Source of the DNA: Desulfovibrio sp. UCD-KL4C
GTDB lineage: Bacteria > Desulfobacterota > Desulfovibrionia > Desulfovibrionales > Desulfovibrionaceae
Length of the DNA stretch: 64,000 nt
NCBI RefSeq assembly: GCF_006210265.1
Contig: NZ_VCNC01000003.1
Coordinates: forward strand, 434,001-498,000
Direction of reading: 5' to 3'
This document shows, one piece after another, positions 1 through 2,002 of this stretch. Position 1 is the stretch's first letter; every line of letters starts with the position of its first letter. The notes below the pieces were generated by a model. It worked only from the letters and a program-made list of their open reading frames with translations, ran no database searches and was not told the origin of the DNA. Position numbers and translations under genes: made by a program.

Positions 1-589
1 AAAAATAATAAGATCAGGCGGGGTACTTATATATCCTACCGAAACTTTGTTTGCCATAGGGGCGGATGCAAGTGATGAAGTTGCTGCAAATCGTGTTGCT
101 CTTGTTAAAGGACGGCCTGTTTCTAAGCCGTTACCACTTATTATAGGTAGCATGGAGCAACTCGACCTTGTTACCAAGTTTGCATCTTCTGATGTTCTTA
201 AACTTGCAGAGTTTTTCTGGCCCGGGCCTCTTTCTATTTTGGTTAAAGGTCGAGATGAATTGCCTTACGCAGTTAAAGATTCAGATGGATATACGTCTGT
301 GAGATGGACTGATCATCCTGTTGCTGCAAAAATCTGTCTTGCGGCTCGAACTCCGCTTATTGCAACCAGTGCAAATCTTAGCGGTAATAAAGCTGCGGAG
401 AAAATTGAAGATCTTGATGTAGAGTTAGTGAAGCTGGTCGAGGGGGTCTTTGACGGCAAGCCTGCTCCGCGCGGTGGAAGTCCTTCAACGGTGATTGAAC
501 CGCTTAGCGGTGGAAAAGTACGAGTCCTCAGGGATGGAGTAATATCCAAAGAATCTTTGATCCAAGCTGGATTTACTGTTGTAGATTAA
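1..589 (+). CDS. tsaC: L-threonylcarbamoyl-AMP synthase (YrdC/Sua5 family), 5' end outside window
   Basis: Family role: makes threonylcarbamoyl-AMP from Thr, bicarbonate and ATP, the first step of t6A formation at position 37 of ANN-decoding tRNAs; cytosolic. Seen: the reading frame is open to the left edge and already encodes the family's G-G-V-x-x-Y-P-T-E-T motif before the TTG at 47, so that TTG is internal and the true start lies upstream of base 1. The K-G-R-P-x-x-K-P-L stretch and the later T-S-A-N-x-S-G motif are the nucleotide-binding signatures of the YrdC fold. The C-terminus has the usual P-R-G-G-x-P-S-T-V segment. About 195 codons are visible, so only a few N-terminal residues are missing. 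YciO-type paralogues share the fold, so the exact subfamily is less sure than the fold. The gene ends just before an intrinsic terminator. Confidence 0.85.
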   Translation, partial: KIIRSGGVLIYPTETLFAIGADASDEVAANRVALVKGRPVSKPLPLIIGSMEQLDLVTKFASSDVLKLAEFFWPGPLSILVKGRDELPYAVKDSDGYTSVRWTDHPVAAKICLAARTPLIATSANLSGNKAAEKIEDLDVELVKLVEGVFDGKPAPRGGSPSTVIEPLSGGKVRVLRDGVISKESLIQAGFTVVD

Positions 590-661: not shown

Positions 662-818
662 AGTAAAAAAAATTAAACTCTAATTGGGATGAATAGTTGT
701 GATGTGATAGCTCAGTATAAAATATTGAACTTTTTGTATGATTTAAGAAAGTTTATTTTTTAAATAAAAATACATTTATTACATGGTGTTATGAGTAAAA
801 TGTATGTATTTTAAATTT

Positions 819-834
819 TGGCACGCGAGTTGCT
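819..834 (+). promoter_or_regulatory. Sigma-54 promoter of small RNA unit 1
   Basis: TGGCACGCGAGTTGCT matches every fixed position of the RpoN consensus (TGGCACG, four bases, TTGC followed by A or T), with GG at 820-821 and GC at 832-833 and exactly ten bases between them. The predicted start site is about 845. Sigma-54 promoters need an ATP-hydrolysing enhancer-binding protein; none is encoded in this window. Confidence 0.88.
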
Positions 835-844
835 ATATTTAAAT

Positions 845-919
845 TACCTTCATTCTTTTGCTGAGATTAAATCGAAAACAGGCCTCGCCGGATACCACCG
901 GCGGGGCCTTTTCGATTTT
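845..919 (+). ncRNA. Predicted sigma-54-dependent small RNA 1
   Basis: From the predicted start to the T-run is about 75 nt. The first 20 nt (ACCTTCATTCTTTTGCTGA region) are unstructured and identical in unit 2; their pyrimidine-rich, CCTT-containing character would suit pairing with a ribosome-binding region. The 3' half is one long hairpin: outer stem 872-878 with 909-915, a 2-nt bulge, and inner GC-rich stem 881-891 with 898-908 closed by a 6-nt ATACCA loop, then TTTT. There is no start codon with a ribosome site, so a peptide is unlikely. Layout (RpoN promoter, short RNA, strong terminator, multiple copies) recalls Qrr RNAs of vibrios, but the sequence is not theirs. Confidence 0.75.
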
Positions 920-1207
920 GTAGTAAAATATAATTTAATTGCGGGATAATTCTGAGTGAAGTTGTCGAGTGGGATTTAAATTTTGAAAAATCAGTTGAGC
1001 ATAAATCTTTAGTGATCAAATTGCGTGTCGCTTTATAATACAGCTTAATCGGTTCAAAAAATTTAACTTAGACCCCTTGTTAATGCTGTATAGTTTCGGA
1101 TTAGTATAAAAAATTTAACTTTCTGTTTATGTAGTAAAGTTTGTTGTTTTTGTATAAAATGCAAATATATTAGTACCTTAAAGTTTTATTTTTATTCTCT
1201 TAGATTT

Positions 1208-1223
1208 TGGCACGCGAGTTGCT
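1208..1223 (+). promoter_or_regulatory. Sigma-54 promoter of small RNA unit 2
   Basis: The same 16 bases as at 819-834, again a full RpoN consensus, with GG at 1209-1210 and GC at 1221-1222. Identity with unit 1 runs unbroken for about 48 bp through the start-site region, so both promoters should answer to the same activator unless distant upstream sites differ. Confidence 0.88.
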
Positions 1224-1233
1224 ATATTTAAAT

Positions 1234-1308
1234 TACCTTCATTCTTTTGCTGATATAAATATCGAAAACAGGCCTCGTCGGATACCACCGGCGGGGCCTT
1301 TTCGTTTG
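1234..1308 (+). ncRNA. Predicted sigma-54-dependent small RNA 2 (copy of unit 1)
   Basis: Near-identical to the RNA at 845-919. Differences cluster in the short linker before the hairpin (GATATAAATATC here, able to form its own small stem) and one C-to-T change in the inner stem that keeps pairing as a G-U wobble. The loop ATACCA, the bulge and the outer stem are conserved, which suggests selection on RNA structure. It ends about 220 bp before the Nudix gene, so it is a separate transcript rather than that gene's leader. Confidence 0.75.
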
Positions 1309-1528
1309 AAGCTTATACTCCATCAGGTAAATTCCTACTTAAGCGTTGCTACATATAAGTTCTTAAGCCTGTTTAATAATTTATACCTTAATTCCATTTG
1401 TCTTGTTTTCTTTCTCAAAAATAAATCGTATTATCTTGTCATAAAAAAACATATGCGTTAACAATCATAATGGAGTACTGATTGTAAGTACTCTTATTTT
1501 GTCTACTACATAATAAGGTTGTATTTAG

Positions 1529-2002
1529 ATGATTGGATCTAAACCATGTCCCCATTGCGGCAATGATATTGTCATTTATCGCAATCCAGTTCCCACTGTA
1601 GATATTGTCATTTATGACCCATGTCAGGGGGTTGTATTGATTAAGAGAAATAACCCTCCGCTTGGTTGGGCTTTACCCGGAGGGTTTGTTGATTATGGAG
1701 AAACTCTTGAACATGCAGCTGTACGCGAAGCAAAAGAAGAGACTAATCTTGATGTTGTGCTGACCGGACTTGTCGGAGTTTATTCAGTGCCGTGCCGTGA
1801 TGATAGACAGCATTCAATTAGTATCACTTATAGCGCTGTCGCATGTGATTCACAAATTATTAAAGCCGGTGATGATGCTGGAACCGCATGTTTTTTTCAG
1901 TTGGACGATCTTCCGGATTTAGTCTTTGACCATAGAGATATTTTGCATGATTTTTCGTCTAAAATTCTTTCGTTACAAACTTCGGCCTCGGTAGGGGCTT
2001 AG
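1529..2002 (+). CDS. Nudix hydrolase
   Basis: Hydrolyses nucleoside diphosphates linked to another group; the substrate cannot be told from sequence. The 157-residue protein has a complete Nudix box: G52, E58, R66-E67, E70-E71, with Asn at the position that is usually Gly (73). The N-terminus has a single C-P-H-C knuckle (C7, C10) and the [11 protein letters not shown] segment common in Nudix proteins described as ADP-ribose pyrophosphatase-like or NudC-like; with only one CxxC a full zinc ribbon is not present. It starts with ATG behind a weak AAGG. It lies 50 bp ahead of glgA on the same strand and may be co-transcribed, though no functional link to glycogen is obvious. Confidence 0.88.

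Follow-up and report, generated by a model that had tools for sequence, protein, structure and literature searches.

Tandem units in a Desulfovibrio genome probably encode sigma-54-dependent small RNAs directed against a porin mRNA

The window analysed here, a stretch of 64,000 nucleotides from Desulfovibrio sp. UCD-KL4C (G000:C3:434001-498000, G000 being the window's own genome), carries two units 389 bp apart, which share the same 5' end and each have a perfect -24/-12 promoter and a strong terminator hairpin. With a probability that we put at roughly 0.8, each unit independently encodes a trans-acting RNA, about 75 nt long, that would be driven by sigma-54 and an activator protein (EBP) and would silence a porin by pairing with the ribosome-binding site of its mRNA. 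The reading rests on the promoters, a conserved operator, a covarying hairpin and a co-changing complementarity to porin starts, all read from sequence, and from these we infer that the units are transcribed and depend on sigma-54 in the cell, that the activator is an EBP, and that the RNA represses the porin, does not activate it, and works without Hfq. In the mechanism proposed, sigma-54 RNA polymerase would wait at the promoter of each unit until an EBP on a palindrome about 100 bp upstream fired it on some signal. The resulting RNA would have its 5' end mostly unpaired and close with a stable terminator hairpin; the free end would cover the porin ribosome-binding site, thereby blocking translation and lowering porin, and the two or three gene copies would raise the RNA dose.

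Both units had been picked out in an earlier note on this DNA as a tandem pair of sigma-54-driven small RNAs, and its description of them held up in nearly every detail. TGGCAC-N5-TTGCT, with the GG and GC elements at fixed spacing, sits precisely at 819-834 and 1208-1223 and is an exact consensus in both copies. The 5' ends are alike (816-864 equals 1205-1253; common end AUUACCUUCAUUCUUUUGCUGA) and near-identity continues onward through the hairpin that closes each unit, where the sole stem difference, C888 against T1278, gives a G-U pair and keeps the pairing. Transcripts would start near 845 and 1234, counted 12 nt from the C of the -12 element, in agreement with the earlier note. The placement in a Desulfovibrio-like genome with sigma-54 promoters and intrinsic terminators is likewise supported by the sequence, and the units match no Rfam family at gathering thresholds. 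The loop ATACCA, reported as conserved, is common to both copies and to close relatives and is not kept across the genus. The predicted features, all on the forward strand, are as follows.

1..589, +, 3' part of sua5/ywlC, upstream neighbour, running off the window; orthologous cluster in 17/17 loci
715..730, +, probable activator (EBP) site of copy 1, GTATAAAATATTGAAC; palindrome conserved in the genus
819..834, +, sigma-54 promoter of copy 1 (TGGCAC-N5-TTGCT); exact consensus, conserved in the genus
845..920, +, predicted small RNA copy 1; start inferred from the promoter and end from the terminator; conservation
846..852, +, ACCUUCA block of copy 1, anti-Shine-Dalgarno-like; in 39/39 genus copies
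853..864, +, copy 1 segment predicted to pair with the target, UUCUUUUGCUGA; complements the porin ribosome-binding site without mismatch
881..919, +, copy 1 terminator, a hairpin and U-rich tail; stem 881-891/898-908 plus an outer stem
1104..1119, +, probable activator (EBP) site of copy 2, GTATAAAAAATTTAAC; palindrome conserved in the genus
1208..1223, +, sigma-54 promoter of copy 2; exact consensus, conserved in the genus
1234..1308, +, predicted small RNA copy 2, ends likewise inferred; fold z -4.2; conservation
1242..1253, +, copy 2 segment predicted to pair with the target, UUCUUUUGCUGA; same letters and target as in copy 1
1271..1305, +, copy 2 terminator hairpin; stem 1271-1281/1288-1298; fold and genus covariation
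1529..2002, +, NUDIX hydrolase, downstream neighbour; cluster in 16/17 loci

Folded alone, 843-921 reached -35.6 kcal/mol (z -7.0 against dinucleotide shuffles) and 1232-1310 reached -27.0 kcal/mol (z -4.2), with the 5' end mostly free in both folds. The promoter word is not rarer than chance in the window (four matches at up to one mismatch, 2.4 expected); the signal above chance is the duplicated unit and its conservation. At gathering thresholds, Rfam models gave no match in the window except two distant tRNAs, and none, the Qrr family included, in 20 related loci.

When copy 2 was used to query 58 genomes, matches were found in all 17 genomes of the genus (the window's own included) and in G028 from another genus, as well as a weak one in G042 (E 0.008), which was dropped as its locus lacks a promoter of the right type. 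Reading of the loci gave 39 copies over the 17 genus genomes, with two copies in 12 genomes and three in five. Clustering of the neighbouring genes placed sua5, glgA and glgB in 17/17 loci and nudix in 16/17 (homologues of the sua5/ywlC and NUDIX neighbours at locus L257 match PF01300 and PF00293, respectively). These four genes look like bystanders. A role in quorum sensing and the nitrogen, flagellar or community signals suggested in the earlier note found no supporting neighbour or target and were rejected, the most recurrent target found being a porin mRNA. The place between the same genes is fixed across the genus, which argues against a mobile repeat. Genome G012 has one gene between its two copies, a reading frame of about 540 aa (L044:5903-7522) that forms a cluster of its own among the compared loci, and G003 has one copy by nudix and two by sua5 about 12 kb off, as after a rearrangement.

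When the 39 copies were profiled without gaps, the promoter and the RNA 5' end stood out as strongly conserved, with a weaker AT-rich operator upstream. The promoter persists across the genus, a few copies having the variants TGGCAT or ATGC, and the first 20 nt of the RNA have a mean unpaired probability of 0.7 over the 39 copies (lowest 0.4, in one copy). In the hairpin, the pairing is kept while the letters change. This was tested on 22 sequences chosen from the 39 copies, with duplicates excluded along with the three copies of G002, whose hairpins are too different to align. In this set 98.3% of cells were paired, the covariation score exceeded all 500 shuffles, and 7 of 11 pairs had changed on both sides, a value reached by 2 of 500 shuffles; slid controls gave much lower values. 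One of the five measures, the number of further pair types, showed no excess over shuffles (387/500 as high).

All 39 genus copies have, 102-105 bp upstream of the -24 box, a palindrome that fits the skeleton GTnnAAnnnnTTnnAC at up to one mismatch; 37 are exact, compared to 12 exact and 238 at up to one mismatch among 3900 shuffles of the same stretches. We consider it a probable site for the activator, on the strength of its position and conservation, and such a predicted upstream activator site thus accompanies the promoter of both units. The palindrome presumably resembles a TyrR box; such sites are used by many EBPs. In the window's own genome the exact operator pattern occurs at four places (the two sRNAs, one porin and one other) against five for the reversed control, so this count alone proves nothing. 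For none of the 28 PF00158 matches of that genome did an operator within about 1.5 kb reach the 25th-percentile score of true sites, and a tblastn search with 26 EBP domains (threshold 1e-5) found an EBP domain in 0/26 sRNA loci, with a positive control of 26/26; most loci extend about 6-8 kb either way, L035 and L041 being shorter at one or both ends. Elsewhere in the same genome, an exact operator match (G000:C3:87770-87785, locus L052) stands right before the gene for a 356-aa protein, which looks WbsX-like, and no sigma-54 box was found by motif near that operator.

The target came to light by chance through the operator search of the window's own genome, which led to a porin gene (NCBIfam DESULF_POR1, 537.5 bits). 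The ribosome-binding site of the porin mRNA complements the RNA 5' end (ACCUUCA..CUUUUGCUGA), and the leader sequence UCAGCAAAAGAAGGA just before the AUG is a 12-nt perfect complement of 853-864 and 1242-1253 (G000:C2:275571-275582, 11 nt ahead of the ATG). The 12-mer occurs at 12 exact places in this genome, namely the two sRNAs, the porin and nine others, and of the ten places outside the sRNA genes only that of the porin is then followed by a GGA-type ribosome-binding site and an ATG, as judged by eye. A porin orthologue is present in 17/17 genus genomes. Its best-scoring copy has UCAGCAA at the pairing spot in 15 of them (G011 and G002 being the exceptions), such that the complementarity to the start region of the porin mRNA is conserved. 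In 16 of 18 genomes the porin start ranked within the top 5% of 1041-1562 windows; it stood at 5.2% in G016 and 12.5% in G009. The two porins tested in G027 differ, with one pairing at -27.9 and the other at only -7.4, and G003 has a short porin-like reading frame without the full site.

Outside the genus, UCAGCAA was absent from all 13 printed porin leaders. GCAAAAG precedes the start codon in 5/13 leaders of genomes in which the sRNA was not found (G034, G038, G041, G042, G045), and the RNA may therefore have adapted to an older porin leader. A second match lies near the 5' end of the porin leader, where the ACCUUCA block also matches TGAAGGT; TGAAGG is found there in 18 of 21 leaders of the genus and G028, and the block reads TGAAGGC in G011. 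In G028 this second match and the RNA change together, the RNA reading TATCCTTCA and the leader of one of its porins TGAAGGATA. A separate block, GGYGTCAGG, was noticed near porin mRNA 5' ends (e.g. L085, about 1441-1452, on G000:C2) and is shared by porin leaders from several families of the order, including genomes in which the sRNA was not found.

Where the RNA differs between lineages, the porin site tends to differ with it. G011 combines the RNA CUUUUGUUGA (GUUGA) with the porin site UCAACAAAAG, and G002 combines UUUUGCUA (GCUA) with UAGCAAAA, its best-scoring porin copy reading UUAGCAAAAG at the pairing spot. Likewise, the RNA CCUUCUUUCUUU of G191 goes with the porin site AAAGAAAGAAGG, while its relative G197 has CCUUCUUUUUUU with AAAAAAAGAAGG; G280 has GAUUUUG in the RNA and CAAAAUC in the porin, and a 17-nt duplex with one G-U was read by eye in G070. 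The co-change test used 47 porin leaders, which represent 40 genomes and were sorted into 16 lineage groups. Beyond the genus and G028 it drew on 30 of the many porin loci listed; 28 of these were usable and 26 entered the permutation test, G027 and G065 being left out (the two porin loci of G065 are cut by contig ends); outside the genus the test covered the best-scoring porin copies and a part of the sRNA copies. With row and column effects removed, the pairing of each sRNA with its own porin was favoured by -70.5 against a permutation standard deviation of 10.5. Permutations did as well in 0/20,000 cases with the 16 lineages, 0/20,000 with one group per genus (nine groups) and 26/7200 within the window's genus (six groups). 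In raw energy, the own sRNA ranked first in 7 of 16 groups and second to tenth in the rest; a common core and the strong pairing of certain sRNAs with many leaders account for this. Taken together, the data suggest that the porin site tends to change to match the letters of the RNA between lineages.

The pairing includes Shine-Dalgarno-like letters common to many mRNAs. A general anti-Shine-Dalgarno sRNA, whose ACCUUC end would hit many GAAGG-type mRNAs with the porin as one member of a broad regulon, is a somewhat unlikely but serious alternative: the class was found by its constant CCUUC, and TGAAGG also occurs near the 5' end of the porin leaders. Against it, the part that co-changes within the genus (CUUUUGCUGA with UCAGCAAAAG) lies outside the Shine-Dalgarno letters, and just 2 of 200 control gene starts from the same loci, each set at the first start codon of its ORF, match the porin start in binding strength. 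Non-porin start-site matches of similar look, judged by eye among the matches listed, recur in two to three genomes. For the porin-directed RNA, Hfq (PF17209) was found in 0/17 genus genomes, one of which is 84% complete, with a control search positive in 5 of 14 named genomes, including E. coli and B. subtilis; pairing may therefore be unaided or make use of another chaperone.

The units appear to belong to a class that extends through the family. The pattern TTGGCAC-N5-TTGC-N6..18-CCTTC was found in 86 of 288 family genomes and 17 of 44 genera, chance hits included, at 120 listed places compared to six for the reversed pattern. Among the family loci read, 59/70 have the operator at up to one mismatch (shuffles 142/7400), against 0/4 in the wider order. 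Outside the genus, the operator offsets form clusters at 89-91, 102-104 and 112-116 bp with a spread at 123-135 bp, in steps of about one helical turn as expected for a protein on one face of the DNA; offsets are common within genera and hence not independent. Further genera with the operator number ten, that of G028 counted (g5, g10, g11, g13, g34, g36, g41, g43, g50 and g51), and look-alike RNAs without operator occur in g8 and g12. Typical RNA sequences are GUACCUUCCUUUCUUUUGCUGACAG (g41), AUCCUUCUUUCUUUUGC (G070) and AUCCUUCCUCCG (g51). The hairpin letters turn over fast between genera, and the pattern together with the operator separated members well. Members in g5, g34, g36 and G241 also adjoin sua5 and/or nudix, which argues for common descent, and 5 of 8 g36 genomes have two pattern matches. 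In g51, loci L233, L238 and L240 hold a second, divergent sRNA subtype with the operator GTACAAGATCCTGTAC, coexisting with the main subtype in G283, G286 and G288.

Of the 11 family loci without operator, L155, L156 and L249 look like members by their RNA and hairpin and the other eight look like chance, while L175 has an operator-like site and no clear hairpin by eye. The promoter pattern matched in 4 of 60 order genomes outside the family; these were rejected, as the spacing differs and none has the operator. A scan of genome contigs gave two matches: L150 (Lysinibacillus), taken as chance, and L151, a contig of a Desulfovibrio sp. MAG that is probably identical with G007:C4.

Among known systems, the Qrr RNAs of vibrios share a sigma-54 promoter and several near-identical copies with the present units. 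Their activator is LuxO and their targets are luxR/hapR. The likeness drawn in the earlier note extends to the layout only; no Rfam match to Qrr was obtained. GlmY (QseF/sigma-54) is a sigma-54- and EBP-dependent sRNA, as proposed here, but acts via RapZ and GlmZ and has its EBP gene close by; no Rfam match was obtained for the present RNAs. On the side of the target, MicF, MicC, RybB, MicA and VrrA are trans-acting RNAs on the starts of outer-membrane protein mRNAs, as here (PMC1804206, PMC2628432, in the available text). Their control by sigma-E, OmpR or other factors and their mostly Hfq-dependent action contrast with the sigma-54 promoters and the lack of detected Hfq in 17/17 genomes, and the porin family here differs from that of the enterobacterial and vibrio porin-repressing sRNAs. 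NcS25 of Burkholderia cenocepacia is likewise short and conserved and matches the Shine-Dalgarno region of a porin mRNA perfectly over 7 nt. According to the available part of the paper, no sigma-54 motif was found upstream of ncS25, the porin promoter being the one that resembles such a motif, and an operator of the present kind is not mentioned (PMC10117139).

Dv_sRNA2 and three other RNAs of D. vulgaris Hildenborough come from the same bacterial family and are under sigma-54/EBP control (PMC3333781, PMC4641369, in part). That the present family is one of these sigma-54 ncRNAs (near DVU0653, DVU0679, DVU2357 and DVU3282) extended to other genera is possible though we hold it doubtful. It would fit the shared bacterial family and promoter type, and Kazakov 2015 lists four such ncRNAs, with no target given in the text available (PMC4641369). 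However, three of the four adjoin or lie near their regulator (EBP) gene in that account, compared here by description only (PMC4641369), whereas an EBP domain was found in 0/26 sRNA loci. The present family may nevertheless have a member among the four. The literature compared also comprised Rajeev 2011 (PMC3333781) and a paper on O. alaskensis ncRNAs (PMC11124144), both in part, and the D. vulgaris porin DVU0799 (PMC5686591, in part) presumably belongs to DESULF_POR1. No report of porin control by an sRNA in Desulfovibrio was among the matches listed in the open-licence literature. Sigma-54-dependent sRNAs and porin-silencing sRNAs are each of a known kind; their combination, the family and the porin target were not met in the literature searched.

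As to the effect of the pairing, the RNA could instead activate the porin, or abundant porin mRNA could titrate the RNA as a sponge. The direction is not legible from the sequence, but the pairing sits on the ribosome-binding site right before the start codon, the classic blocking position, and we regard either alternative as improbable. Least credible by far is a reading with no regulatory RNA at all, in which the units are repeated terminators or the remains of a mobile element. This would suit the near-identical neighbouring copies and the copy number of two to three, but not the retention of promoter, operator and 5' end while the hairpin letters change with the pairing, nor the same neighbours in 17 genomes and the adjoining sua5 or nudix in four more genera.

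A possible common regulator of the RNA and its predicted target is suggested by the DNA upstream of the porin genes. The palindrome skeleton GTnnAAnnnnTTnnAC occurs in exact form 95-260 bp upstream of 44 of the 53 porin genes examined, against 30/5300 shuffles and 4/236 upstream regions of control genes. Many porins of the genus have the AT-rich palindrome twice ahead of the porin promoter, with starts 17 bp apart, and the porin-upstream palindrome is also found in order mates where the sRNA was not found. Either one EBP may serve both the sRNA and the porin, or two proteins may have like sites. We tentatively propose, at somewhat less than even odds, a two-tier switch in which one EBP would act on GTAAA-N6-TTTAC-like palindromes both at the porin promoter and at the sigma-54 promoter of an Hfq-free anti-porin RNA, forming a feed-forward loop.

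Porin control by sRNAs is textbook knowledge in enteric bacteria, where it operates via the sigma-E envelope-stress system, and an unrelated lineage appears to reach the same design with sigma-54. As sigma-54 needs an ATP-driven activator, such a system can be fully off until signalled. The analysis assigns a predicted target to a family of sRNAs in sulfate reducers, and both the gating of solute entry in anaerobes and sRNA action where Hfq is not found become directly testable. If the two-tier feed-forward loop proves true, it would close the outer membrane of sulfate reducers fast, and would do so family-wide.
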